Of a stretch of 64,000 nucleotides of DNA, positions 2,923 through 64,000 are shown piece after piece. The stretch spans positions 1 through 64,000 of the forward strand of contig NZ_VUNM01000007.1 of assembly GCF_009695655.1 (NCBI RefSeq). The letters are read 5' to 3'. Source of the stretch: Sharpea porci (GTDB lineage: Bacteria; Bacillota_I; Bacilli_A; Erysipelotrichales; Coprobacillaceae). The notes below the pieces were generated by a model. The model was not told the origin of the DNA. It worked only from the letters and a program-made list of their open reading frames with translations, and did no database searches. Within the stretch, counting starts at the first letter, position 1; every line of letters starts with the position of its first letter. The position numbers and the translations under genes are program-made.

Positions 2923-3864
2923 ATGGCCAATCAACCAATAAACAACGATGTTCTTGCTAAAATAACCGTAACTCTTGTTATAGGTGCTACAGCATCCGGT
3001 AAGACAACCTTTATTCAGAATCATTTTTCTAACAAGAGAAATACCGTGATATTGAATGTGTATGATTATCAACAAGCCGCCTATAAAGAGGCTGGATTCG
3101 GTAAGCATATCCCGTTTGGACAAGAATTCAAGTGTTTATACAAAGCGAATGAAAATCTATTGCTAGATATTATCGACACCTTACAAAATGGCAAAAACGT
3201 AGTTGTCGAACAGACTTTATATAAAGCAAAACGCAGAATTGGATACATAGATGTTATCAGAAACACATTTAAAAATATTAAGATTGAAGTTTATGTGATG
3301 TGCCCTAGTGACTCGGTTTGGGAAACATATGTTACGGAAAGAAGATTGGCACACTCTTTTCAGCAACTTAAAACCGAAGCCGAACAAATAGAATTTCCAA
3401 ATCCAATCGAAGGATTTGATTCCATTTACGAGGTTGTCGATGATGTTATTAAATTAAGGATGGATGAGCCTAAACCTGAAATTGTTGAACCGGCTCGAAA
3501 AGAAATACTTGAAGATGCTGAAGAATTGCGCAAAGAGAATGAAAAAATAAAAGCCAAGGCAGATTTGCTTGAAAGCATGAATTCACGACCATTTTGGCAT
3601 TATTGTGAGGTGTGTGGCACAAAACTTTACTGCACAGCTCAAGAAGCTTTTGATGCCGGTTGGGACTACCCGCCACAAATTGGTACGTTCGGATTATTAG
3701 GACCTCGCACTTGTGGAAAGTGTAGTATAACCGATACTTTGTGGTGGAAAGTCCAACAACAAGGGCTACCTATTGTTATTGAAAAAGACTTGACCGCAGA
3801 AGAACTAAAAACTTGGCGAAGAATAAAAAAGGAGCCTGAAAGTTTGCTTGAGGAAGAAAAATAA
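2923..3864 (+). CDS. P-loop kinase-like protein with Cys-rich tail
   Basis: A 313-aa protein with an ATG start after GGAGGG. Residues ~18-30 (VIGATASGKTTFI) form a Walker A P-loop of the nucleotide-kinase/zeta-toxin superfamily, and the N-terminal ~170 residues fit such a fold (VVEQTLYKAKRR may be a lid or Walker B-like segment). A charged helix around 185-220 links to a C-terminal zinc-finger-like part with a CEVCGTKLYC motif and a CGKC motif. The gene appears intact among broken neighbours. It could phosphorylate a small molecule, a nucleic-acid end or a nucleotide sugar; the substrate cannot be told from sequence. No partner antitoxin is evident. Confidence 0.6.
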   Translation: MANQPINNDVLAKITVTLVIGATASGKTTFIQNHFSNKRNTVILNVYDYQQAAYKEAGFGKHIPFGQEFKCLYKANENLLLDIIDTLQNGKNVVVEQTLYKAKRRIGYIDVIRNTFKNIKIEVYVMCPSDSVWETYVTERRLAHSFQQLKTEAEQIEFPNPIEGFDSIYEVVDDVIKLRMDEPKPEIVEPARKEILEDAEELRKENEKIKAKADLLESMNSRPFWHYCEVCGTKLYCTAQEAFDAGWDYPPQIGTFGLLGPRTCGKCSITDTLWWKVQQQGLPIVIEKDLTAEELKTWRRIKKEPESLLEEEK

Positions 3865-3890
3865 TATGAAATAAAGCGGAAGGTGACAAA

Positions 3891-4394
3891 ATGATAGTTG
3901 CAGGTTATTCAAGTGTAGGCAAAACAACTTTTGCAAAAGCGCATCAAAATATCATTGATCTACACGTTATGCCTTACAAATATTCTAATTTAAGTGAACT
4001 AAACAACAAATATTATGACGAAAGCATTAAAGCAGCTCCTGAACTGATTTTAAATATCGATTGGAGATATGATTATTACGATAAATTAATATCACTCGAT
4101 AAATCTGAACCCAACAAAATAATTGTAATTCCAACTGATATTCAAATAATGAATTGGCTTGAGTGTGATTAAATACCATTTACACTTGTTTTCCAATCGT
4201 ATGAATTAAAGGAAGAATATAGAAACAAATATTTAAAACGTGGAAACACGAAGGATTTTATTGATGTGTTTATAAGTGGTTGGGATTATTGGATTGGAAT
4301 GTTTAAGCAACAAAAGGGATGTGAGAAAAATGAACTTAAAACATGCGAATATCTATCGGATGTCATAATTTTCAATGGGATGTGTGATATTTGA
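3891..4394 (+). pseudogene. P-loop kinase-like gene with in-frame stop
   Basis: Begins with an intact P-loop (GYSSVGKTTFAK) after a good ribosome site. The frame is interrupted by TAA at 4170-4172, after which the same frame continues for 73 codons as recognisably coding sequence (TLVFQSYELKEEYRNKYL, FIDVFISGWDYW) to a stop at 4392-4394. The simplest reading is a single nonsense mutation in a protein of ~165 aa, probably a small nucleotide-kinase-like protein related in fold to its upstream neighbour. A truncated 93-aa product could still be made. Confidence 0.7.
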
Positions 4395-7357: not shown

Positions 7358-7377
7358 AGGATGTCAAGTGACATCCT
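7358..7377 (-). terminator. Rho-independent terminator
   Basis: AGGATGTC/GACATCCT stem with a 4-base loop, followed on the minus strand by TTTT. It sits just past the stop of the DUF815 ATPase. Confidence 0.75.
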
Positions 7378-7381
7378 GTAT

Positions 7382-8695
7382 TTAGCTTCTGTTTTTACCG
7401 ACAAGATAATTGATGAATTGCTGTGCAGTTCTGCCAGAGAAACCACCATGGGCAATTTCCCATTTATTGGCTTCTTGCTTAAGTTCGTTTTCACTTAATG
7501 TGATTTCTGGATACTTTTTAGCAAGCGTGTTGACGATGTTTTCATATTCTTTCTTATTTGGCTTGAAATAGCCAATAGAACATCCAAAACGGGCAGCTAA
7601 TGAAAGCTTTTCTTGTACTGTATCATTTCTATGTAAATCATCATCTTCGCTTTCAAGATTACGATCATTCCAGCTTTCACGAACTAAGTGACGACGGTTA
7701 CTTGTGGCATAGATCAGGACATTGTCTGGCTTCGTCTCAAGACCACCTTCAATAACTGCCTTCAAATATTTATATTCATATTCACCTTCATCAAAAGAAA
7801 GATCATCCATAAAGATAATAAAACGATAATTTCTATTTTTTATTTCATTGATGACTTTCGAAAGATGAACAAAATCCTGCTTATAAACTTCAATCATACG
7901 TAAACCACGATCATAATATTCATTCATAATCGCTTTGACTGAAGTTGACTTACCAGTACCAGCATCACCATAGAGAAGCACATTATTCGCTAATCGACCT
8001 TCAATAAATGCTTCTGTATTTTCGACAAGCTTCTTTTTCTGTATTTCATAACCAACTAAGTCATCAAGGACCATTGTGCCTGTTGCCGTGATAGGTTCAA
8101 GAACAGAATCACTCTCTTCTGTAATGCGAACACGAAAAGCTTTATTTAAGCCAAGCTTACCCACACCATAATCCTTATAGAATGTTGTTACGACATTGTA
8201 TAATTCATCATCAGTTGTGGTCTTTTCAATTTGTGAAGAAAGGGCAATGACTTTCTCACTGACAGATTTATTAAAAATACGTTCCTTCTTAGTCAAGGCA
8301 TGATAGTTTTCAATAATCGTAAAACAATTCAAATCTAAAGCTTCTTCCAATCTTGAAAAATCATAATCAAAGAGTTCTTTAAAAATATGTAAATCATTCT
8401 TCGCAAAGAGATTCACCGAACCTTCATTCGCACCAACCTTCTCGCTGACAAGTGAAAAAGGAACTTCCGTACTGGCTAGTAAATAAGCTAAGTAATTATG
8501 CCAGAGGTTGTGGTCAAAGCCATATTTTGTGGATAATTCGAGTAAGCGATTGATTTCATCAAGAATACGTCCACGTAAATCTTCTTTTTCATAATGCCCT
8601 TGGTCGAATTCATGACAGATCTCGGAAAGTTGATAAAGAATGCTTTGTTTATCTATTGAACGATAGACAATAAGCTTGGATGTAAGTCTATACAT
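7382..8695 (-). CDS. DUF815-family AAA-like ATPase
   Basis: A 437-aa cytosolic ATPase. Residues ~200-437 match the DUF815 family: Walker [11 protein letters not shown], Walker B-like [10 protein letters not shown], sensor-like [10 protein letters not shown], and a C-terminal helical part with [11 protein letters not shown]. The N-terminal ~200 residues are helical and specific to this subgroup. DUF815 proteins are widely conserved in bacteria and thought to be AAA-like ATPases of unknown biological role. The gene stands alone, divergent from the diguanylate cyclase gene and with its own terminator. Length is normal and all nucleotide-binding motifs are intact. Confidence 0.85.
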
Positions 8696-8835
8696 AGTGA
8701 TGCCTTCTTTCTTTTTTTTCTTATTTTACTGACTTAAATCCTATTTGTCTATATGACAAGTATGGATATTTTGGCTTGTTTATTTGGAAAATAAGAATGA
8801 ATAAAGATATATTTACGCTTTCTCGTAAAATCTAC

Positions 8836-8862
8836 TTGTGATGTCATAGAATGTGATATAAT
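8836..8862 (+). promoter_or_regulatory. Extended -10 promoter
   Basis: TGATATAAT (TG extension plus a perfect -10, hexamer 8857-8862) with a weak upstream TTGTGA (8836-8841). It lies 20 bases before the diguanylate cyclase start, so the leader is very short. Confidence 0.5.
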
Positions 8863-8881
8863 GACGACAAGGGAGAAATCT

Positions 8882-10483
8882 ATGGAACAGTTACCAAGAG
8901 TCGAAAGAATTATTCAAAAGTTGTTCTTTGTCATAATCATCTTGAGTTTGATTATTCTAAGTCTTATAGGCTATACGAATACAGTTTCTCACTATTCAGA
9001 ACATAGTGAACGCTTAACGAAGCTTTCTTTAAAAGAAAAGAAAGTCATGAATAATAAAGCGAGGCATGGCTATTCTTATGAATATCATTTTACCTATTAT
9101 AAAAAGGCCCATAATCATGATAGCTTGATGTTTTATGTTGATAGTAGTGATGTGGATATTTATGTAGGTGATCAACTGAAATATCATTATTCATTGAAGG
9201 ATGGAATGGGGAAAACGGCTGGACCAGTATGGGTATTGAATGAATTCAATCATCAGGATCATGGAAAAGAAGTCAGAATTCTTATTTCTCCGGTTTATGA
9301 TACGATGCCTAAAGAAAAAATAACTTTTTATTTAGGGGAAATTGTCAGTATGTATCGTTATCAGCTTCATGGCGATCTCTTACAATTAGTCTTGGCTTTT
9401 CTCGCTATTCTTTTTGGCGCAGGTTATCTTATCTATGCCATCTTTAGACTTCGTTCACATACACCGACTCATGGGCTTGGTTATTTAGGCTTATTTGGCT
9501 TGAATATAGGAATCTGGCGTTTATCGAGCTTAGGTATTATTGCGCTTACTTTACCAGCTGTATCACGTGTCTTTATCTTTGCGGGATGGCTGATGTTGAT
9601 GTTGATGCCACTAAGCTTTGAGCTCTATATTACGCAATTTGCGAGAAAGAAGGTCAGGGCGTTACTTGATGGCTTTATTCTCTTTATGATGGTTTCTATC
9701 ATTATGGCGATTATTATGCAGTTTATGAATATCCGTGATTTACATGAAAATATCTGGCTTCTCAATGTCAATGTCTCAATCATGTTCTTCTCAACAATAA
9801 TCATTCTCTTAGTCTTAAATAATGAAAAGCGAGGCTATTTTGATCGAAAACAAAATGTCTTTTTAATAAGTCTTATTATCACAAGCATATTAATTGATAT
9901 CTTTAATTTTTATTACATCTCTTCAACAACCCCATACTTCTATACAGTCTTAAGCTTTGATATCTTTGTCATATCAGGAGGAGTCAGCCAGATCTTTAGC
10001 TTAGTCCATCAAGTCAATATCGATCTCCCAACCGGTCTTTATAATAAAGGACGTGTCAACGAACTCCTTTCAAGAAAAGGGGCAGCATCAAGCGATACAG
10101 GTGTAGCTGTATTTGACTTAAATGGCTTAAAAAAGACCAATGATACTTTAGGACATGAAGCAGGTGATCAGATGATTGCGGATTTTGCGAATGAATTAAC
10201 GAAAAATATTCCAGGGTCTGCTTTTATTGGACGCTTTGGTGGGGATGAGTTTATTGCAGTTATTCGTAATGCTGATTGTCAACGCATGGAAGATATATTG
10301 GATCTCTTGAAGAACTCTGTTCAACGTTATAATCAGAGAGAACAGGATGTGAAGATTAGCTATGCGGTTGGATATGCGGTTAATGGTGAAGAGCCGCTCT
10401 CTTTGCGGACACTCTTTAATATGGCTGATGATCGTATGTATGAAGATAAAAAACAACATTATGCCAATCTTATTAGAAAATAG
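8882..10483 (+). CDS. Membrane-bound diguanylate cyclase (GGDEF)
   Basis: Makes cyclic di-GMP from GTP. I chose ATG 8882 because AGGGAG lies 8 bases before it; a start at 8861 would have no ribosome site. The 533-aa protein has one N-terminal membrane helix (~15-35), an extracytoplasmic sensor region to ~150, about seven further membrane helices to ~350, and a C-terminal GGDEF domain. GGDEF is at residues 453-457 within RFGGDEF, and the upstream DLNGLKKTNDTLGHEAGD motif is canonical. The usual RxxD inhibitory site five residues before GGDEF is absent, so product inhibition may be lacking. No EAL domain. The external ligand is unknown. Confidence 0.9.
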   Translation: MEQLPRVERIIQKLFFVIIILSLIILSLIGYTNTVSHYSEHSERLTKLSLKEKKVMNNKARHGYSYEYHFTYYKKAHNHDSLMFYVDSSDVDIYVGDQLKYHYSLKDGMGKTAGPVWVLNEFNHQDHGKEVRILISPVYDTMPKEKITFYLGEIVSMYRYQLHGDLLQLVLAFLAILFGAGYLIYAIFRLRSHTPTHGLGYLGLFGLNIGIWRLSSLGIIALTLPAVSRVFIFAGWLMLMLMPLSFELYITQFARKKVRALLDGFILFMMVSIIMAIIMQFMNIRDLHENIWLLNVNVSIMFFSTIIILLVLNNEKRGYFDRKQNVFLISLIITSILIDIFNFYYISSTTPYFYTVLSFDIFVISGGVSQIFSLVHQVNIDLPTGLYNKGRVNELLSRKGAASSDTGVAVFDLNGLKKTNDTLGHEAGDQMIADFANELTKNIPGSAFIGRFGGDEFIAVIRNADCQRMEDILDLLKNSVQRYNQREQDVKISYAVGYAVNGEEPLSLRTLFNMADDRMYEDKKQHYANLIRK

Positions 10484-53407: not shown

Positions 53408-53594
53408 GCATTTTAGATATAATTGCGTAAGCATATATACAAAATAGAAGGAATGAATGAAATATAATGAATATACTCTTTTAAAGAAGATTGATTTATT
53501 ATAAAAGTAATAATTGTGTGACAAATATATCTCTATAATCGATTGTTTCATCTTGATATAATAAATCTAATAATTGAATGAGGAGGACATTACA

Positions 53595-54611
53595 TTGAAA
53601 AATAAATCAAATAAGGATATGAGATTGGATGGTGTAGATTATAGAATCAAAGACGGTAAGATAAAGTTAGGACAAAAATATTACACTGCTAAACAAATAC
53701 ATATTTTTTCGATATTATTCTATATTTTAGGAATTCTAATAGTTTTAATAAGTTTAGCAATAATGCCAATTGGAATAATATTTCTATTACTTGGTGTAGG
53801 TATTATATGGTTTGGATGGTCATATTCTCATTTTCGTAAGATATTATTGAATGCGCAGACGATCCATGAGCAGCCAACTCAGGACACTACATCAGAGTAC
53901 AACTATAATGAAGAAAATTTAGAAAGTGAAACATCAATAAATTCTAAAGTAAAGCAGTCTCATTCGAAATATCCATTTAAAGATGATGAAGATAGATTCT
54001 TGCGTTATAGTTATTATGATGTTGAAGTAAAAGGCTTTGGCTATCAAAATTTTGATATTACAAAGTTAGAATTAGATAAGTTTGTAACATTTGATTTTGA
54101 ACCAGATAATCCATATGATCCCAATGCCATTGCTATATTTTATGATGACCAGAAAATAGGTTATATACCTAGGAATTCTCTTCAAAGTATGGTGAAGGAT
54201 TATTCTGATGGTATTGAACATCAAATATGTGGATTTATTTCTTATATCAATGAGGAATTAAATGAAGTTCATCTTGGATTAGGATTTTATTCAAAAGAGA
54301 ATAAAAATCTTGATGTAATGACATGTAAGTTAATCAAAACAAAGATGAAAGATTTCATGGGAAATTCTAGGCAGGATAATCTTGCGATGGCTGAGATTGG
54401 ATCTCCAGTAGAATTGGAATATAGCTATGATAGTGATACATACATAGTGAATGATGACACAGGATTTGAACTAGGAGAAATATCTAAAAAGCAGTCAGAA
54501 AAGTTGTTTGATGTTATTGGAGATACAAAACCGTTTTATGCTGAAGTTAATGATCTTGAAATGGATGACGATGGTAATTATATTTGTAAGATTAAAGTGT
54601 GGTATAGATAA
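53595..54611 (+). CDS. Membrane-anchored HIRAN-domain protein
   Basis: A ~338-aa protein. TTG 53595 is the likely start because AGGAGG lies 8 bases before it. After ~30 soluble residues come two membrane helices (~35-80, IFSILFYILGILIVLISLA and GIIFLLLGVGIIWFGW). A linker rich in Glu/Thr/Ser leads to a HIRAN domain (~135-235; FDFEPDNPYDPNAIAIFYDD then KIGYIPRNSLQS). The last ~90 residues show a second similar beta-rich part (GFELGEISKKQSEKLF). HIRAN domains recognise DNA ends or nicked DNA; a membrane-bound form is unusual. It has its own promoter region and terminator, so it is separate from the CRISPR operon. Confidence 0.8.
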   Translation: MKNKSNKDMRLDGVDYRIKDGKIKLGQKYYTAKQIHIFSILFYILGILIVLISLAIMPIGIIFLLLGVGIIWFGWSYSHFRKILLNAQTIHEQPTQDTTSEYNYNEENLESETSINSKVKQSHSKYPFKDDEDRFLRYSYYDVEVKGFGYQNFDITKLELDKFVTFDFEPDNPYDPNAIAIFYDDQKIGYIPRNSLQSMVKDYSDGIEHQICGFISYINEELNEVHLGLGFYSKENKNLDVMTCKLIKTKMKDFMGNSRQDNLAMAEIGSPVELEYSYDSDTYIVNDDTGFELGEISKKQSEKLFDVIGDTKPFYAEVNDLEMDDDGNYICKIKVWYR

Positions 54612-54826: not shown

Positions 54827-54859
54827 AAACATATGACACAAATGGAAAGGAGCTTAGAT

Positions 54860-56218
54860 ATGAAAGTTCTATTTACACCCATTGGGAAAACAGATCCAAT
54901 GTCAATATCTGAACGTGATACGCATCTGAATATCTATGATGCTTCAATGATGCATATATGTCGATTTTATGATTTTGATAAAGTTGTCATGTACATGTCA
55001 AAAGAAATCTGTGAATTTGATGAAAAAGATAATAGGTATGAAATAGCTTTAAACTTTCTCATGAAATATAAGGGAAAGTCATTTGAAATTGAAAAGGTTC
55101 GCAACAAAGAAGATACAGATCCACACTTATTTGACAAGTACTATGATGAATTTGAATCTATCATAAAAGCACAAATAGAGAAGTATGGAAATGATACGGA
55201 GATATATGTCAACGTGTCTTCAGGAACGCCAGGTATGAAAATGGCTCTTACATTTATTTCGGCTTTATCTAAATACTGCATTACAGCTTTGCAGGTATCT
55301 GATCCAAATCGAGGAAGAGGACAACGTAAAGATGATTTAGGAGATTATGATGTTGAAGGATATTGGGAAGATAATGAGGACAATAGGTTATCAACTCCTG
55401 AAAGAATAGCGGTTCTCAAGACACCCAATATGCAGTTTAGGATTCAGAAGGAATCACTGCTAACTATGATTGATAATTATGAATATAATGCGGCATATAA
55501 TTTCATAAAGGATGCATCTGCTAGACTTGATTCATCTCTTCTTGAATTAGCTGAGTTTGCGAAAGAACGATACGCATTAAACAAAAACAAATATCTCAAG
55601 ATTCAAAAAAATAATAATTGGGATTTTATTCCATATAAACAGGATGGCCGAATTGAATTATTTGAATTTGCTTTGTTGATGAATATTAAGGTTCAGAAGA
55701 AAGAATTACTTGATTTTTGTCGTTGTATGACACCATTCCTATATCAATCATCAATGATGATTCTTAAAGATATATATAAGATTAATCTAGAACAATATAC
55801 TGATTACAATGGTAAACTTACACGTTATAAGCTACAAAATGATCAAACTGGAATCAAAATACTGAGTATTCTTGATGATTCTTATTCATCATATTATAGC
55901 AATCGTATTTATGTAGATACGCATTTAACACAAGCGCAGTGTATTAATATCATAAATAGGCTAGAAACAGATAATAGAAAGCTCATTAATGCCCTCAATG
56001 ATTTGGATGAATTCAGGCAGGAATTAAGAAATCAGGCCAGTCATGAAATTGTCTGTATAACACAGGAATATATTGAAAAAACAGTTAAGCATCCATTGAG
56101 TTATTACATTAACTGCATGAAGACAATCTTGAAGTCACTCAATTATGATATTACGAATAATTGGGATTCTTACTTGAAGATGAATCAATATATAAAAGAT
56201 AAAATAAAGGAGATTTAA
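54860..56218 (+). CDS. csm6: Csm6, CARF-HEPN ribonuclease
   Basis: A 452-aa Csm6, the RNase activated by cyclic oligoadenylate in type III-A systems. The start at 54860 follows AAAGGAG. The CARF domain (~1-170) has VNVSSGTPGMK at ~119-129, the cOA-binding loop. The C-terminal HEPN domain has the catalytic RxxxxH as Arg390-His395 (RNQASH). A middle helical part connects the two. Length is normal. It is the first gene after the operator-like repeat and 3 bases ahead of cas10. Confidence 0.9.
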   Translation: MKVLFTPIGKTDPMSISERDTHLNIYDASMMHICRFYDFDKVVMYMSKEICEFDEKDNRYEIALNFLMKYKGKSFEIEKVRNKEDTDPHLFDKYYDEFESIIKAQIEKYGNDTEIYVNVSSGTPGMKMALTFISALSKYCITALQVSDPNRGRGQRKDDLGDYDVEGYWEDNEDNRLSTPERIAVLKTPNMQFRIQKESLLTMIDNYEYNAAYNFIKDASARLDSSLLELAEFAKERYALNKNKYLKIQKNNNWDFIPYKQDGRIELFEFALLMNIKVQKKELLDFCRCMTPFLYQSSMMILKDIYKINLEQYTDYNGKLTRYKLQNDQTGIKILSILDDSYSSYYSNRIYVDTHLTQAQCINIINRLETDNRKLINALNDLDEFRQELRNQASHEIVCITQEYIEKTVKHPLSYYINCMKTILKSLNYDITNNWDSYLKMNQYIKDKIKEI

Positions 56219-56221
56219 ACT

Positions 56222-58630
56222 ATGGAGGATAAGTTTACGTTAGAGAAGTACAGTATAGTTGAAATAGCTTATGCTGCACTTCTTCATGATATTGGAAAGT
56301 TTTACCAAAGAACATTTCCAAAATCAAATTTAACTGAAGCAGAAAAAGATACAACCCCAATAAATCCAATTGGACAATATCATACCCATTTACATAGTGG
56401 TTATACATCTCGTTTTTTCAAAGAATATCTTCATCGCTTTGATGAATTTGAAAGAGTGACAAGTGAACACCATAAAGATCCTGATGGAAAGCTCTCGATG
56501 ATTATTAAAAAGGCTGATCATCTCGCATCAGCTATTGATAGAAGTGATGAGAGTTGTGATTATGAAGAAAAGAATAAGCGAGGTGCTTTCATTACTGCAA
56601 GACTTTCTTCCATCATGAGTGAAGTTACATTTGGTGAAAAAGTAAGTCATGAGAGCCCTGTTTTTCCGCTTTCATCTTACAAACAAATTGTTAGACCAGA
56701 ATCCCATTATCATTTTAAAAACATTCAAGACAGCGCTGACGAATATGCGAAATTGTTTGAAGAATTTACAACACAGGTAAAGAATAGACCTCTTTTTACA
56801 AAGAATATAGATATGAATTCTTATCATGCTATGTATAACTTGTTGAATGAATATCTTGTAACTATTCCGGCTTCTACTTATGAAGGAAGACGTTCATCAG
56901 TTAGCTTGTATGATCATTTAAAACTAACTTCAGCGATTGCAAGCTGTTTAGGATATAAAGAATGCTATGATGCAGCATTCTCAAAGGATGAGAATAGTAA
57001 AGTATTTTATATGCTTGAACTTGATGTATCAGGCATTCAAAGCTTTATTTATAAGATTGTAGAAGGAAGTAGTTCTAAGCCTAAACTGACTAAGGCCTTA
57101 AGAGGGCGTTCATATTTTGTTGGTCTTGTGACAAACGCTATTTCATATGCTTTTCTAAACGAATTCTCACTAACTGAAAGCAATATCTTATTTAATACCG
57201 GTGGTGGAGCAGTCATTCTACTTCCTCATACAAAAGATACTCAGAAAAAGGTTGAAGAAACAGCACTTAGACTACAGCATGACCTTTATGATATTTTTCA
57301 TAATGACATCACATTTGTTTATGGCTTAGTGCCAATGAATTGTGATGAGCTAGAAACATTTAAGTCAGAGAAATCAATAGAACTTAAATCAGTACTTGGA
57401 CGTAACAAGATGCGTAAGTATGCCAAAATGACATCAGCAGAATTCTTCTATAAACAAGCTAAGGGAAACAATACTTGTGTTATGTGTGGAGATGAAATAG
57501 AACAAGGAACAATGTGTACAATCTGTAAGTCTATTGAGACTGTTTCTCAATATATTACGAGTGAAAAACATCATGATTATGGTATTTATTATAATTACGA
57601 TGATGAAGTACTACCTCATGACAAGGATGATATTTTTATTGACTTGAATTTTGTGAAGATTCAGTCAGTAGAAAACCCAGAAAGTCTTTATACAAGAAAT
57701 CATTATTATGTTGATGGTATTAATGATTTTGGCTTTGGAAACATGAAGCTTTCAGCTAATTTAGTTCCGAAGACTAATAATAATCGTACGCTAAATTTTG
57801 AAGAAATAGCAAAATGGGAAAGCAAGGATGACTTAGCTGATCAGTTTGGTGATCCAAAACTTGCCATACTGAAGATGGATGTTGATAATCTTGGTGGTAT
57901 TTTTGCATTTGGACTTACAAAACAAGAGGATGTACGTGTTCAAAGATCTATTTCTAAATATGTTACTCTCAGTAGATTTATTGAATACTTCTTCACATAT
58001 CGCATTATTGATATTTGTAAGAAGACAACTCAACAAATTATCAAAGACAGAGATAATATCTTCTATATTAACTATGCTGGTGGGGATGATTTAGTTATTA
58101 TGGGACCAGCTTATGGTATTCTCTATTTAGCTGAGAATATTGATAAGGAATTTAGTGCTTATACATGCAACAAGAACATCACAATATCAGGAGGCATTAA
58201 TATTCAAAAGCCAACAAGACCTATACGATTTGGTGTGCAGGAAGCAGAGAATAATCTTGAAATATCTAAGAGTGGTGAGAAGCATGCAATCACAGTCCTT
58301 AATACGAGAATTCCATTAAATGAATATACAGAATTCCTAAATGAAGTGGAATACTATCGTGATGCGATTAATAATGAAATGATTAGTCGATCAATGCTTT
58401 ATAACATTATGAGTAATATCAGAGATTGTGAATATGGCCGTGATTTTTTAAGACTACTCCCACGAATTCAATATGTCCTTTATCGTAGTGAAACAGACAA
58501 AAATCGCAGTTCTCTCGACAAGGTAAAGATAGATATCGTCTCCATCGATTCTAATGAGAAACTGCAGAAATATATATTACTTTTAAAACTAGCAATCATG
58601 CTGACAAGAGAAGCAGGAGGAAATGAATAA
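56222..58630 (+). CDS. cas10: Cas10/Csm1, type III-A large subunit
   Basis: An 802-aa Cas10. The N-terminal HD domain (His22-Asp23 in LLHDIGKFY) is the DNase. A zinc-ribbon with Cys419, Cys422, Cys432 and Cys435 (CVMCGDE...MCTIC) separates the two Palm domains. The GGDD of Palm2 is intact at residues 620-623 (YAGGDDLVIM) and makes cyclic oligoadenylate from ATP when target RNA is bound. AAGGAG precedes the ATG. It overlaps csm2 by one base (TAATG). A fully active enzyme is expected. Confidence 0.95.
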   Translation: MEDKFTLEKYSIVEIAYAALLHDIGKFYQRTFPKSNLTEAEKDTTPINPIGQYHTHLHSGYTSRFFKEYLHRFDEFERVTSEHHKDPDGKLSMIIKKADHLASAIDRSDESCDYEEKNKRGAFITARLSSIMSEVTFGEKVSHESPVFPLSSYKQIVRPESHYHFKNIQDSADEYAKLFEEFTTQVKNRPLFTKNIDMNSYHAMYNLLNEYLVTIPASTYEGRRSSVSLYDHLKLTSAIASCLGYKECYDAAFSKDENSKVFYMLELDVSGIQSFIYKIVEGSSSKPKLTKALRGRSYFVGLVTNAISYAFLNEFSLTESNILFNTGGGAVILLPHTKDTQKKVEETALRLQHDLYDIFHNDITFVYGLVPMNCDELETFKSEKSIELKSVLGRNKMRKYAKMTSAEFFYKQAKGNNTCVMCGDEIEQGTMCTICKSIETVSQYITSEKHHDYGIYYNYDDEVLPHDKDDIFIDLNFVKIQSVENPESLYTRNHYYVDGINDFGFGNMKLSANLVPKTNNNRTLNFEEIAKWESKDDLADQFGDPKLAILKMDVDNLGGIFAFGLTKQEDVRVQRSISKYVTLSRFIEYFFTYRIIDICKKTTQQIIKDRDNIFYINYAGGDDLVIMGPAYGILYLAENIDKEFSAYTCNKNITISGGINIQKPTRPIRFGVQEAENNLEISKSGEKHAITVLNTRIPLNEYTEFLNEVEYYRDAINNEMISRSMLYNIMSNIRDCEYGRDFLRLLPRIQYVLYRSETDKNRSSLDKVKIDIVSIDSNEKLQKYILLLKLAIMLTREAGGNE

Positions 58631-59094
58631 TGAGTTACATGTATGATCAAAAGAAAAGAAGCTCTTATCAAAGAAAAAAAACAGAGGAAAAGAAGGAAAT
58701 CAATCCTTACAAACCTATAACGATTCCTTTAAGCCAATATTTCAATGATCCAATTGAACTATACCTTCCCGAAAAGAAGGCTTATAAATACGCAAAAGAC
58801 TTACTTGGAGCTAATAACCATCAGATGAGAAAGGTACTTGATGGCATTAAGGAAGCAAAAGCATATGTAGAGGCAAATGACTTCAATCTTGCTAAAAAGA
58901 CAGTCTTCGTTCTTGTCGCCATGAGTGCATACAATGCTGGTAGAGAACCTAAATTAAAGCAGCTCTATTATTTCGTAGAATCAGTTATTAATGAAAAATC
59001 AATTGTTTCAAAAAAAGATATCATTACACTCGATGAGCTCTTTACAAGTATCATCGCATATCATAAGCAATTAGGAGGCAATAAAAATGCTTAA
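58630..59094 (+). CDS. csm2: Csm2, small subunit
   Basis: A 154-aa helical small subunit of the Csm complex, which lines the belly of the complex in several copies. A basic, disordered N-terminus (DQKKRSSYQRKKTEEKKE) is followed by a helical bundle with QMRKVLDGIKEAKAYVEAN near 79-97. The gene begins within the cas10 stop codon and overlaps csm3 by 8 bases. Assignment rests on size, helical pattern and position. Confidence 0.85.
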   Translation: MSYMYDQKKRSSYQRKKTEEKKEINPYKPITIPLSQYFNDPIELYLPEKKAYKYAKDLLGANNHQMRKVLDGIKEAKAYVEANDFNLAKKTVFVLVAMSAYNAGREPKLKQLYYFVESVINEKSIVSKKDIITLDELFTSIIAYHKQLGGNKNA

Positions 59095-59704
59095 TGAAAT
59101 CTATAAAATCAACGTTAGACTTAAATTATTAACAGGACTCTATATTGGTGGTACGGATAATGGATTTGATATTGGTGGTGCTGATGCAAATGTCATTAAG
59201 AATCCTTTAGATAATATTCCTTATATTCCAGGCAGTTCAATAAAAGGAAAGCTGAAATATCTTTTGAAAATTCATGAAGGAAAACTTAATGATGAAGGTA
59301 ATGACTACAAATTTGATGATGACAACATTACAAGCCTATTCGAAAAAGCTGAAACAAAAGAAAACCAGTCAACGCGTGCTATCTTCAGAGATTTAACGCT
59401 CAGCAACAAGGAATACCTTGAAAGTAAGCTGGGGAAGGGACGCTATACAGAAATCAAAGGTGAAAATAAGATTGATCCACTCAAGAGTACGGCTAATCCG
59501 CGTTTTATCGAAAGAGTGCCAGCTGGCGCTATCTTTGAAGGTGAAATTGTCATCAATATTTTTGATGAAGACAATAAGGATACAATGATCCATGCCATTG
59601 AAAAAGCATTGGGACTTTTGGAAATGAACTATCTTGGTGGTAATGGATCAAGAGGCTATGGACGAGTAAAAGCTGAATGGAAAACTGAGAAAGTGGATAT
59701 CTAA
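59087..59704 (+). CDS. csm3: Csm3, backbone RNase subunit
   Basis: A 205-aa RAMP protein, the backbone that cuts target RNA at 6-nt intervals. The catalytic Asp is present as Asp33 in IGGADANVIKNP. PYIPGSSIKGKLKYLL near 48-63 and a C-terminal glycine-rich loop GGNGSRGYGRVK near 185-196 are canonical. GGAGG precedes the ATG. It lies between csm2 and csm4 with near-zero spacing. Confidence 0.93.
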   Translation: MLNEIYKINVRLKLLTGLYIGGTDNGFDIGGADANVIKNPLDNIPYIPGSSIKGKLKYLLKIHEGKLNDEGNDYKFDDDNITSLFEKAETKENQSTRAIFRDLTLSNKEYLESKLGKGRYTEIKGENKIDPLKSTANPRFIERVPAGAIFEGEIVINIFDEDNKDTMIHAIEKALGLLEMNYLGGNGSRGYGRVKAEWKTEKVDI

Positions 59705-59705
59705 T

Positions 59706-60665
59706 ATGAAAACGTATCGCATTACTTTCAAAGTGCTCTCTTCAATCACTCACTTACCTGATGCCCAGACTCTCTTTGGTAGCTTCTGCAATATCATTAG
59801 GTCAACCCAGGGAGAAGAGGCACTTCAGCAGTATTTTCAGTCCTTCCAGACACAGCCACTTTTCATCCATTCCTCAATGTTTCCCCATGAGTTGCTACCA
59901 ATGGTCAAGGTTGGTCTAATTTCTATTCAGGAGAAGAATGATATCATTTTTAATAAAGAAAAACCACTTTCTCCTAAGCAGCAGCTTCACTACCTTTCCT
60001 ATATGAAAGAATTTAAGAAAATCAATTATACAACACCATTTATCTACAAAAACTACATTGCCAAGGCACGTTTTACAGATTTGAAGAAAGCTCTTTTTGA
60101 TGGAAAAGTATACTTAAATTCAGGAATACTTTCGGAGAAAGAAATGAGTGCACAAAGAAGTGATACAGAGTTGATTTTTCATGCAGCTAATCTTTCGGAT
60201 AATAATAGAGAAGACGAAAGGGGACTGTACTTCGATCGAAATCTTTATTTCAAGGCCGGCGAGCTATTTGATGTGTATATCAAGACGGATGATATTGAAT
60301 ATGTTAAGAATATTATGAAGTATGCGCCATACTTTGGTTTTGGCAATAGAATATCTGTTGGCAAGAACAGCTTTGAAATGGTTGAGGTTAAGGAATTTAA
60401 TATTGCAATACCTCAAACAGATGATGTCATATTGCTTTCAAAATGTATCTCAGAAGATTTTGATTTTGATGAATCTTCATACATCATGGAGAGTAACAGC
60501 TATAAAGGCTCAAGTTATTATAGTTCAAACACAATAGGAACCTTTACAAAGCTTGTGGAAGGAAGCTTCATGAGAGTAAAGACTCATAAAGAGTATTATG
60601 GCTCACTCATAAAAACAGACAACGGAAAGACAATCTACCATTATGCAATTGGTTTTGTCTTTTAA
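59706..60665 (+). CDS. csm4: Csm4, 5'-handle-binding subunit
   Basis: A 319-aa RAMP protein that caps the crRNA 5' handle and binds Cas10. It begins one base after csm3. LPDAQTLFGSFCNIIRSTQG near 17-36 is the N-terminal RAMP segment and YFGFGNRISVGKNSFEMVE near 207-225 the glycine-rich loop. Identification combines these features with operon order. Confidence 0.88.
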   Translation: MKTYRITFKVLSSITHLPDAQTLFGSFCNIIRSTQGEEALQQYFQSFQTQPLFIHSSMFPHELLPMVKVGLISIQEKNDIIFNKEKPLSPKQQLHYLSYMKEFKKINYTTPFIYKNYIAKARFTDLKKALFDGKVYLNSGILSEKEMSAQRSDTELIFHAANLSDNNREDERGLYFDRNLYFKAGELFDVYIKTDDIEYVKNIMKYAPYFGFGNRISVGKNSFEMVEVKEFNIAIPQTDDVILLSKCISEDFDFDESSYIMESNSYKGSSYYSSNTIGTFTKLVEGSFMRVKTHKEYYGSLIKTDNGKTIYHYAIGFVF

Positions 60666-60674
60666 GGTGATCAT

Positions 60675-61829
60675 ATGACTAAAGTGAAAATTGAAACAAT
60701 AACACCTGTACATGTGGGTACAGGAGACACCAAGTTACCTATTTTCTATATGGAAGATGGAGAATATATGTCCTTCTATGATGAACAGGAAGTGCTCTCT
60801 TGTGTACCGGATAAAGTCCTTTTGGACAAGCAATTCCTAGATAAGCTCTCTCATTTTAGCGATAAAGGAGCACGTAGTGGACAATCACCATCAAAATATT
60901 TACAGAATACTTTGAAACGATATGTGAATTTCTCAAAGCTAACACCACGCTATCAACTTAAAAGTGATGTAGATTACTATATTACTGAGAACAAGAAATA
61001 CAATGAACAAATTAAGACGCTTGACAAACCTTATATTCCTGGATCCTCGCTTAAAGGAGCGATTCTCAATGCAGTCTATTATTCTTTCCTTCTGTTTAAG
61101 GGAAAAGAATTAAGCTATAAACTTTCACATATAGAAAGGCTTTCATTGGAAAGCATTATGGAGGCGTTAGGTATTTCTACAGCTTTCATAAAGGAATTCA
61201 ACAGTTGTCTTACTGTAAGAGATGTTCCGTTCAATGAATTGCGAATAATGGATGCAAAAAGACTAGATACTCGTAATGAAAAAAAGGATTTATCCAGTGC
61301 ATTACCATTGTTTGAATGTATCGATTATGGACAAGATACAACTGATAGTTATATCTTAATAAATCGAGAAAAACTCAATTTAATAAAGGGAGAAGATAAT
61401 GATTCAGAAGCTTGTAAACAGTTAATAAATTGCATGAACTATAAAATGATTCGTTTAGCTTGTAATAGATATATGTTGGATATATTAAATGAGGAGCTGA
61501 ATCTTGATGATAACTTAGATTTCTATTCAAAAAATAATTTTAGAAATGCGCTTGAGGGTTTGAAGAAAAATGTTGCAAATAAAGAAAGTAATGCTTTTTA
61601 TTTGCGTATTGGCTCAAGTACAAACTATTTTTCAAAGACAGTATCGCTGCTATTCAAAAATAAATTTCCACATGAATACGATAAGCGTTTTAATCAATCT
61701 TTTTCACCTAGTAATAGAAAGAATACAAGAGCAAAGTCTGATACGCTTCCTAAGACACGCATGCTTTATCTAGATGAACAGGTAGGTAATTGCTATCCAG
61801 GAGTCATAAGAATTGAATATGTTGACTAA
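60675..61829 (+). CDS. csm5: Csm5
   Basis: A 384-aa RAMP protein at the 3' end of the crRNA in the Csm complex, also involved in recruiting maturation nucleases. It opens with ETITPVHVGTGDTKLP, the typical RAMP start, and has PYIPGSSLKGAILNAVYYSF near 119-138. AAGGTGATC precedes the ATG. Its end overlaps the next gene by 17 bases. Confidence 0.88.
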   Translation: MTKVKIETITPVHVGTGDTKLPIFYMEDGEYMSFYDEQEVLSCVPDKVLLDKQFLDKLSHFSDKGARSGQSPSKYLQNTLKRYVNFSKLTPRYQLKSDVDYYITENKKYNEQIKTLDKPYIPGSSLKGAILNAVYYSFLLFKGKELSYKLSHIERLSLESIMEALGISTAFIKEFNSCLTVRDVPFNELRIMDAKRLDTRNEKKDLSSALPLFECIDYGQDTTDSYILINREKLNLIKGEDNDSEACKQLINCMNYKMIRLACNRYMLDILNEELNLDDNLDFYSKNNFRNALEGLKKNVANKESNAFYLRIGSSTNYFSKTVSLLFKNKFPHEYDKRFNQSFSPSNRKNTRAKSDTLPKTRMLYLDEQVGNCYPGVIRIEYVD

Positions 61830-62532
61830 ATACGATATAACGCTATCATTCCCTCTTGGTGCGAAGTTCTACAATAATATCAATACTCTCATTTATAAAA
61901 AACTAATGGAATTCATCCATCATTTAACATGCATCAACAAAGGTGGAAAATGTAAAGATTGTCCACTTCAAGATAAATGTCAGTATTACCATTTAACAGG
62001 CGAGAACTTCTCATTTTATCCAGGTATTATTATTGAAAACTCACCATTCACCAAAAGACTTTTAAGACAGAATGACGAGCTTCAGCTCGTCATCTATCTC
62101 ATCGGAGAGTGCAACGTATCATCTGGGTATATCAATCTATTCTTTGAAGAATACTTAAATCATCATATAGCTGGATCGTTCTTTCTTATTAAGCAGCTAG
62201 AATATTCGCAGATAAAACTATCAAAAATAAAAAGAAACACACTTTCTTTTAGTTCTCTTTTTGAGAAGGATAGCTTCAAAAGTGTTTATAACAACATGAT
62301 GATATACTATAGAAATAATTATGGCATGGATCTAAGTATTCTAGAAGATGACTATGAAATGTTGAATACAATCGAAAGCTCACTTGAACCAATTAAATTT
62401 AAGACTAGGTACATCAAACCTAAAGGCATAATATGCCAATCAATCATTATTTCAGAAGAGATAGAAGATATCATATTCTATACTGGTCTTGGACGATACA
62501 ATTACATGGGAGGTGGAAGGATTGAGAATTAA
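61813..62532 (+). CDS. Cas6-like RAMP with cysteine motif
   Basis: A 239-aa RAMP of the Cas6 type (PF10040-like look). The start is probably TTG 61813, nine bases after AGGAG; ATG 61819 is the alternative. A CKDCPLQDKC motif (Cys at ~48, 51 and 57) suggests zinc binding. The C-terminal loop GLGRYNYMGGGRIEN is glycine-rich as in Cas6/RAMPs. It precedes a second, classical cas6, overlapping it by 11 bases, so the operon encodes two Cas6-like proteins. It may process a second repeat type or act as an accessory subunit. Confidence 0.7.
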   Translation: MNMLTKYDITLSFPLGAKFYNNINTLIYKKLMEFIHHLTCINKGGKCKDCPLQDKCQYYHLTGENFSFYPGIIIENSPFTKRLLRQNDELQLVIYLIGECNVSSGYINLFFEEYLNHHIAGSFFLIKQLEYSQIKLSKIKRNTLSFSSLFEKDSFKSVYNNMMIYYRNNYGMDLSILEDDYEMLNTIESSLEPIKFKTRYIKPKGIICQSIIISEEIEDIIFYTGLGRYNYMGGGRIEN

Positions 62533-63259
62533 GATAACAATGCAGAAGAAGGACTTCACCTTACCTATTGCTTATAAGCATGCCATACAAGGAACAATCT
62601 ATCATATGTTTCCTAAAACAAAGGAGGGAGAGTTCTTCCATGATGAAGGTTATAGAATTGAAAACAAAGTCTTTAAGATGTTCACCTTCAGTGATTTGAA
62701 AGGGAAATATAGTATTGTTGATAGAAAGATTATATTCGATGAATATACTACTTTATATATTGCTTCACTTAATGAAGAATTTATCCGCTACATCTATGAT
62801 TACCTTTGTAGAAATAGTATGCTTTTCATCAATCATCAGGAAGTAAAAGTTGTAAGTGTAGACATTGAGGACTTACGTCCTTTTTTGGGAATACAAAAAA
62901 AGACAATCATTACGCTTTCTCCTGTTACAGCCTATAAAACAGAAAATAGATATACAACATACTATAAGCCAAGTGATGATGAATCTGAGAATCTAGTACT
63001 AGAAAATATCAAAAAGAAGGCAGAAGCTTATGGATATCCACTAGAAGCACTGCATTTTCATATTATAAATGTTGACTATGAAAAAAAGCAGCTCATTAAG
63101 TTCAAAAATACCTTATATGAAGCTTATAGAATAAGAATGAGTGTTGAAGCAGATTATGATACATTGTCTATTATCTATAATACTGGGCTTTCCAGTAAAG
63201 GATCATGTGGGTTTGGCATGATTGAGGTGGCTGATGAAAAAGACAATCTATTTGTATAA
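62522..63259 (+). CDS. cas6: Cas6 pre-crRNA endonuclease
   Basis: A 245-aa Cas6, the RNase that cuts the repeat RNA to make crRNAs. I set the start at TTG 62522 (RIKITMQKKDFTLPIAYKH) because GGAGGTGG lies 7 bases before it; that reproduces the usual Cas6 opening. The ferredoxin-like N-half has HAIQGTIYHMF, and the second half ends with the G-loop SSKGSCGFGMI near residue 230. It overlaps cas1 by 26 bases. Confidence 0.88.
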   Translation: MRIKITMQKKDFTLPIAYKHAIQGTIYHMFPKTKEGEFFHDEGYRIENKVFKMFTFSDLKGKYSIVDRKIIFDEYTTLYIASLNEEFIRYIYDYLCRNSMLFINHQEVKVVSVDIEDLRPFLGIQKKTIITLSPVTAYKTENRYTTYYKPSDDESENLVLENIKKKAEAYGYPLEALHFHIINVDYEKKQLIKFKNTLYEAYRIRMSVEADYDTLSIIYNTGLSSKGSCGFGMIEVADEKDNLFV

Positions 63260-64000
63260 GAGTGGTGAACTTCATCGAAAGGATTCATCGTTGTGTCTTT
63301 TGGATAAGAATGGTGATGTGACATATATTCCTATTGAACAAATTGATGCAGTGCTTTGTTTTGGTGACATTACGCTCAACAAGAGAGTCTTAGGCCTTCT
63401 AAACACATATTGTGTTTCAGCGCAGTTTTATAACTACTATGGGCAGTATATTGGAAGATTTATACCAAAGGAATATGTCTCAGGAAAAGATATGATATGT
63501 CAGATAGATTCATTTAGAAATGATAAAATGCGTTTATCCATCGCATATGCCATTACTGAAACAGAATTACATAATATCTTGTCTTTACTTAAGTATTACA
63601 ATAAGAAGGATATTGATCTTATAAACATGATACATGCTAATTCTGATATTCTATCAGAATTAGATGAATGTAATTCAGTTGATCAGCTTTTATTGAAGGA
63701 AGCTCAGGCTAAGAAAATCTATTATGCAGGAATCGATAAGATACTGGAAAATACAAACTATCATTTCGTCAAAAGAAGTATTCAGCCTCCAGGTAATGAA
63801 GTCAATGCGTTGATGAGTTATGGTTATGCACTACTATATGCAAACTTTCTTACTGAGATAGATAAAAGTCCGCTTATGGCTAATATCAGTTATGTACATA
63901 GTATTGCGAAGACCACAGATTCCCTTCAGTACGACCTTGCTGATATTCTTAAACCAGTTATCGTAGATAGAATGGTTCTAAGAATGATTCGTAAGAATCA
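63234..64000 (+). CDS. cas1: Cas1 integrase, partial
   Basis: The first 255 codons of cas1 (spacer acquisition integrase), truncated by the window edge. It starts at ATG 63234 after GAGGTGG, inside the end of cas6. KKTIYLYKSGELHRKDSS and the following VLCFGDITLNKRVLGLL, then AQFYNYYGQYIGRF, match Cas1 of type I-B/III loci. The catalytic Glu/His/Asp come partly within or just beyond the window (GNEVNALMSYGYAL near 186-199 carries the first Glu). cas2 and an array are expected to the right. Confidence 0.92.
   Translation, partial: MKKTIYLYKSGELHRKDSSLCLLDKNGDVTYIPIEQIDAVLCFGDITLNKRVLGLLNTYCVSAQFYNYYGQYIGRFIPKEYVSGKDMICQIDSFRNDKMRLSIAYAITETELHNILSLLKYYNKKDIDLINMIHANSDILSELDECNSVDQLLLKEAQAKKIYYAGIDKILENTNYHFVKRSIQPPGNEVNALMSYGYALLYANFLTEIDKSPLMANISYVHSIAKTTDSLQYDLADILKPVIVDRMVLRMIRKN

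Follow-up and report, generated by a model that had tools for sequence, protein, structure and literature searches.

Introduction

To our knowledge, crRNA maturation in the known type III-A CRISPR systems is carried out by one Cas6. Loci of the Staphylococcus and Streptococcus kind, whose enzyme falls under the PADLOC model Cas6_IIIa (PDLC01781; here L088 and the Thermocaproicibacter locus L094), have a single gene of the Cas6 family at the csm operon, and the sequence read around it contains no other Cas6. Outside this group, the closest described proteins are classical Cas6 (PF01881/TIGR01877, such as Pyrococcus furiosus Cas6), the longer PF10040-type Cas6 (PDLC01477; 276–354 aa), a member of which is Rhodothermus marinus WP_014072545.1, and the P. 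furiosus Cas6-related protein of PDB entry 3ufc, which comes from a genome that also encodes a normal Cas6.

Here we describe a type III-A locus of Sharpea porci in which a Cas6-like gene of about 237 codons, gene X, lies between csm5 and a normal cas6. X is conserved, and its description is absent from the literature that we searched. The conserved extra gene would imply a crRNA maturation or loading step, in a III-A lineage of gut-type bacteria, that the Staphylococcus and Streptococcus models lack, and it suggests that a part of CRISPR RNA processing has gone undescribed.

Results

Gene X and cas6 follow csm5 in a complete type III-A locus

The window, a 64,000-nt stretch of contig NZ_VUNM01000007.1, ends within a type III-A CRISPR locus with the gene order csm6-cas10-csm2-csm3-csm4-csm5-X-cas6-cas1-cas2-array; all locus genes in the window are on the forward strand. 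HMM matches identify csm6, which encodes a CARF-HEPN protein (54833–56218), csm3 (59087–59704), csm4 (59706–60665), csm5 (60675–61829), and cas1, which is cut by the window end (63231–64000). The cas10/csm1 product (56222–58630) scores 498 bits against a cut-off of 170, and that of csm2 (58630–59094) falls just under the TIGR01870 cut-off and is clear in PADLOC. Past the window end lie cas2 and a single array of 24 repeats (GTTAGATATCGTTCTTATAAAGGATTAACGC; contig positions 64651–66276), so that Csm1/Cas10, Csm2 to Csm5, Cas6, and an array are all present. Directly upstream of csm6 is a 345-aa ORF (53574–54611) in which inspection by eye suggests a HIRAN-like stretch and hydrophobic stretches at the N-terminus; it is not known to be part of the CRISPR locus.

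Gene X extends from ATG 61819 to 62532, with TTG 61813 as an alternative start, and cas6 extends to 63259 from a likely start at GTG 62513 or TTG 62522, its longest ORF beginning at 62489. Depending on the choice of start codon, X overlaps the end of csm5 by 11–17 nt and cas6 by 11–20 nt, and these overlaps make coupled translation of csm5, X, and cas6 likely. An earlier sequence-only reading of the window had noted that X and cas6 overlap; its statement that the two must be co-translated is softened here to this likelihood.

The same reading had called the second gene a classical Cas6, and by its profile scores the protein is clearly an ordinary PF01881/TIGR01877 Cas6, with 92 bits for TIGR01877 (cut-off 58.65) and 74.3 bits for PF01881 (cut-off 23). 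Tyr27, His40, and Lys52 (numbered from TTG 62522; His codon at 62639–62641) are invariant in an alignment of the 14 Cas6 proteins adjacent to X, and they correspond to the Tyr/His/Lys set of Pyrococcus Cas6.

Gene X has a predicted Cas6 fold

The X protein of the window has no match above cut-off in Pfam or NCBIfam, including PF10040, PF01881, and TIGR01877, and a sequence search of the PDB found no relative. An HMM check of both proteins against PF10040 and PF01881 had been proposed; the second protein passes PF01881, and X reaches neither. The PADLOC Cas6 model PDLC01477, by contrast with these families, matches the N-terminal half of the window protein (E = 4.4e-6) and of 13 of the 14 X homologs (best E = 2.5e-17).

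An AlphaFold2 model built from the 14 homologs (pLDDT 86.4, pTM 0.86) was used in place of an earlier, poor model from 5 sequences (pLDDT 50). Structure prediction had been proposed as a check in the sequence-only reading, and this model retrieves Cas6 structures first when compared with the PDB by Foldseek: matches 1–15 are all Cas6, and 19 of the 20 best are Cas6 proteins or domains, while the remaining one is a type IV-A Csf complex chain. The best match is P. furiosus Cas6 (3i4h; E = 1.3e-6, probability 1.00), and the Cas6 structures matched include S. thermophilus 6fjw and P. furiosus 3ufc (E = 8e-5), the latter resembling X in fold and in second-Cas6 status. The TM-scores are moderate (about 0.5–0.55) and the rmsd is high; Csm3 structures match only at E of about 0.01 or worse. 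X matches no HMM of the Csm families, and its identification as a known Csm subunit was rejected. The model thus portrays X as a Cas6-superfamily protein with two RRM-like domains and a Cas6-like fold, which, together with the PDLC01477 match and the TIGR01877 and PF01881 matches of its neighbor, bears out the proposal of two Cas6-family proteins in one III-A operon.

A RAMP-type glycine loop had also been reported in X, and it is found near the C-terminus (GLGRYNYMGGGR; pattern GxGxxxxxGGG). It spans codons 223–233 (GLGRYNYMGGG; 62485–62517), and in the 14-homolog alignment G223 and G231 are invariant and G225 and G233 occur in 13 sequences.

Relative to classical Cas6, X shares the predicted tandem-RRM fold but has a four-cysteine loop, no invariant His, and no HMM match, and the classical role in its operon is filled by the partner gene. 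The PF10040-type proteins are closer: they have in common with X the N-terminal RRM, the C-X6-C-X2-C-X5-C loop, the C-terminal glycine loop, and the type III context, whereas X is shorter, lacks the RYSxRQ/GGLxGE region, and always stands beside a PF01881-type Cas6. PF10040 matches the Rhodothermus member and none of the 14 X proteins, whose C-terminal halves resemble it by fold and glycine loop alone; judged by these profiles, X is therefore a relative, not a full member, of the cysteine-containing PF10040-type family. We favor the view that X represents a branch of the cysteine-containing PF10040/PDLC01477-type Cas6 proteins that has diverged and become shorter. Cas6_IIIa, which in L094 directly follows csm5 and so takes the position of X, differs in having no cysteine motif and in keeping its His-containing N-terminal region.

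A conserved four-cysteine loop in X may hold an iron-sulfur cluster

The cysteine loop of X (codons at 61930–61980) follows the first helix and reads C38-INKGGK-C45-KD-C48-PLQDK-C54. The segment CKDCPLQDKC had been recognized in the sequence-only reading, and the fourth conserved cysteine, C38, had been missed. All four cysteines are among the residues invariant in the 14 X proteins (C38, C45, C48, C54, Y56, F64, G203, G223, and G231), and their C-X6-C-X2-C-X5-C spacing has a sole exception, the homolog of L048, with X7 in the first gap.

This spacing is the [4Fe-4S]-binding motif of endonuclease III and MutY (PMC11138216, PMC2954223). In local sequence (TCVARKPKCEQCSLTSLCKYYK against TCINKGGKCKDCPLQDKCQYYH) as well as in cysteine spacing, X resembles the endonuclease III/MutY loop (PF10576); the likeness is confined to the loop, the overall fold of those enzymes being unrelated to X. 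Two independent observations agree with this: the MutY loop ranks first among the NCBIfam matches of X (E = 0.012), and X profiles retrieve an endonuclease III (L049, genome G405) via its residues 185–208, which contain the Pfam EndIII_4Fe-2S domain (188–204); having been found through the cluster loop, this protein was rejected as an X homolog.

From the conservation and spacing of these residues, a [4Fe-4S] cluster is the most likely ligand of the X cysteines. Zinc is the alternative, as four cysteines in such spacing could bind it too. An iron-sulfur or other metal site in X is a strong, testable prediction. Among Cas proteins, Cas4 is the one known to carry iron-sulfur clusters; no report of an iron-sulfur Cas6 was found in the literature searched, with subscription journals mostly outside it. 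X might also use such a cluster to sense redox state, iron, or oxygen and so tune crRNA production or Csm activity. The endonuclease III/MutY spacing is what makes this conceivable, but many clusters of this kind are structural, and we regard a sensing role as very unlikely.

The loop extends beyond the X family, to Cas6 proteins of other phyla. The long PF10040-type Cas6 of Rhodothermus carries a four-cysteine motif (CITRLPACTDCPFRWPC), and the same arrangement is found in long Cas6 proteins of Allochromatium, Deinococcus (with one extra residue in the first gap), and an Arcobacter plasmid; a Rubrobacter member of the long family has lost some of the four cysteines. For the long proteins of Rhodothermus, Allochromatium, and Deinococcus, an iron-sulfur nature of the endonuclease III/MutY-type loop is possible.

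X is a standard gene of one Cas10 lineage

We sampled 395 genomes of the class, the sampling for X covering the window's own lineage, and found homologs of X in close relatives and across the class. X is present in 10 of the 13 class genomes with a Csm-type Cas10 (Csm1-type, over cut-off). In each of the 14 loci read, all of them III-A and with their own Cas6, it directly follows csm5, and in most of them cas1-cas2 and an array lie downstream of X and cas6. The pairing of X with Cas6 is accordingly not special to one operon, and chance or misannotation was rejected as an explanation of X. A contig scan that required conserved peptides gave only four near relatives, and a search of viral contigs and plasmids with the window's X found nothing; hits in three genomes (G046, G057, and G071; L014–L016) were false.

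Three genomes with Csm-type Cas10 are those in which X was not seen. In one (G016), the locus is complete and of the Staphylococcus type, its Cas6 gene preceding cas10; in the second (G061), whose Cas10 groups with that of G016, the contig stops in csm3; and the third (G168) belongs to the X lineage by its Cas10, its contig stopping in csm5. In the Cas10 tree, G016, G061, Thermocaproicibacter, and Nostoc form a group apart from the X carriers (support 98/99), the deeper forks being weak, and Cas6_IIIa loci are likewise of a separate Cas10 lineage. Most III-A loci of one Cas10 lineage in the class carry X, as a standard gene.

X is kept in two loci where the stretch read has no cas1 or cas2, L010 (csm5-X-cas6-repeats-unrelated genes) and L047 (X-cas6 between arrays), and in two where csm6 is missing, L048 and L087. 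It is therefore tied to the processing/effector part of the system, not to acquisition or cyclic-oligoadenylate signalling. A service of X in spacer acquisition with Cas1-Cas2, which the placement of cas1 and cas2 after cas6 in most loci might suggest, is weakened by L010 and L047, and we give it very little credence.

The same loci bear on the possibility that X has a purely structural place in the Csm effector complex, as a subunit that does no cutting and caps, say, the Csm5 end or the crRNA 3′ end. Its persistence without csm6 or, in the stretch read, without cas1/cas2 would fit such a subunit, as would its constant place after csm5, which it overlaps or abuts, and its co-inheritance with Cas10 and Csm5. 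Distances among X proteins track those of Cas10 (r = 0.91), Csm5 (0.86), and Cas6 (0.81), values reached in 0 of 2000 permutations and of a kind expected for any jointly inherited genes. X is, however, tied equally to cas6 and belongs to the Cas6 family, not to that of Csm3 or Csm5, and we know of no comparable subunit in any known Csm structure; we consider a purely structural Csm role unlikely.

Two variations among the loci may be recorded. Among the 14 loci, gene order is rearranged in L048 alone, where cas1 separates X from cas6 (csm5-X-cas1-cas6; 7373–10137). At the csm6 position or in its neighborhood, L047 (7293–8744) and L086 (14550–16031) encode a different large protein that the csm6 model does not match and that may be another CARF-type effector.

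X as a putative non-cleaving partner of Cas6

A catalytic Cas6 is marked by conserved residues, usually a His with Tyr/Lys, and these are found in the partner Cas6 and not in X: no His is invariant in the alignment of the 14 X homologs, and K4 (13/14) is the only nearly invariant Lys or Arg. X is thus probably devoid of cleavage activity. Active sites are diverse between Cas6 families, and a missing His is no proof of inactivity. X could instead be a ribonuclease with an atypical active site that makes a second cut, either in the array repeat or in the 3′ tail that remains after Cas6 cleavage. It has the Cas6 fold, in a family whose active sites vary so widely, and its conserved Tyr56, Tyr164, Tyr168, and Lys4 could act in catalysis; moreover, the related long cysteine-Cas6 family is presumably active, because its Rhodothermus member is the only annotated Cas6 in the part of its locus that was read. 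Yet X is missing the RYSxRQ-like stretch of several of these long proteins, in addition to lacking an invariant His, and its companion is in every case a Cas6 that retains all of Tyr, His, and Lys. A cutting X seems to us improbable.

The sequence-only reading had also offered a second repeat family as the substrate of X. Some archaea and cyanobacteria do have several Cas6 proteins for several repeats (PMC4041471). In this genome, however, a pattern search for the III-A repeat (up to 3 mismatches) found a single array, and the only other Cas1 belongs to a locus with cas9-cas1-cas2-csn2-like order (L100 132–5995, on G000:C5), followed from about 6063 onward by about 53 repeats beginning GTTTTAGAGTTGTGTTATTTTGG, which are unrelated to the III-A repeat. 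Cas9 systems use tracrRNA and RNase III for processing and should need no Cas6. On the search for this one repeat and on the Cas1 genes of the genome, a second repeat family is disfavored to the point that we attach almost no probability to it.

Since a normal Cas6 always adjoins X, a non-cleaving RNA-binder is the most economical reading. We tentatively propose, at slightly less than an even chance, that X is a cluster-bearing, non-cutting, Cas6-fold RNA-binding partner of the catalytic Cas6 in crRNA maturation or loading. Two further suggestions of the sequence-only reading, a heterodimer partner and a new Csm-associated subunit, lie near this proposal. The PF01881-type Cas6, with its Tyr/His/Lys set intact, would cut the pre-crRNA repeats, and X would bind RNA beside it, where it would help to hold the repeat, itself weakly structured, or the 3′ repeat tail once released. 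The repeats are weakly folded (MFE −0.1 to −4.2 kcal/mol), and a second RNA-binding subunit could help on them. X might then pass the crRNA or repeat tail on to the Csm complex at its Csm5 end. The maturation nucleases of S. epidermidis are recruited at Csm5 (PMC9762709), so that X could reasonably be placed at that end. That a [4Fe-4S] cluster can lie where a protein binds RNA has a precedent in T. maritima TrpRS (PMC2954223).

If the loop binds [4Fe-4S], Cas6 proteins of several phyla would have to be counted among the iron-sulfur proteins that bind RNA, and their purification and assay would be affected (anaerobic handling). A still broader statement, that a widespread Cas6 branch comprising X and the long PF10040-type proteins is iron-sulfur and that in one III-A lineage a pseudo-Cas6 as second maturation subunit makes crRNA production iron- or redox-dependent, is one that we think decidedly unlikely to hold in full. 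In another phylum, the III-A locus of Arcobacter cloacae plasmid pACLO (L099) likewise encodes two Cas6 proteins a short distance apart, one of the PF10040 type with four cysteines and one PF01881-like (3240–3989 and 7371–8201).
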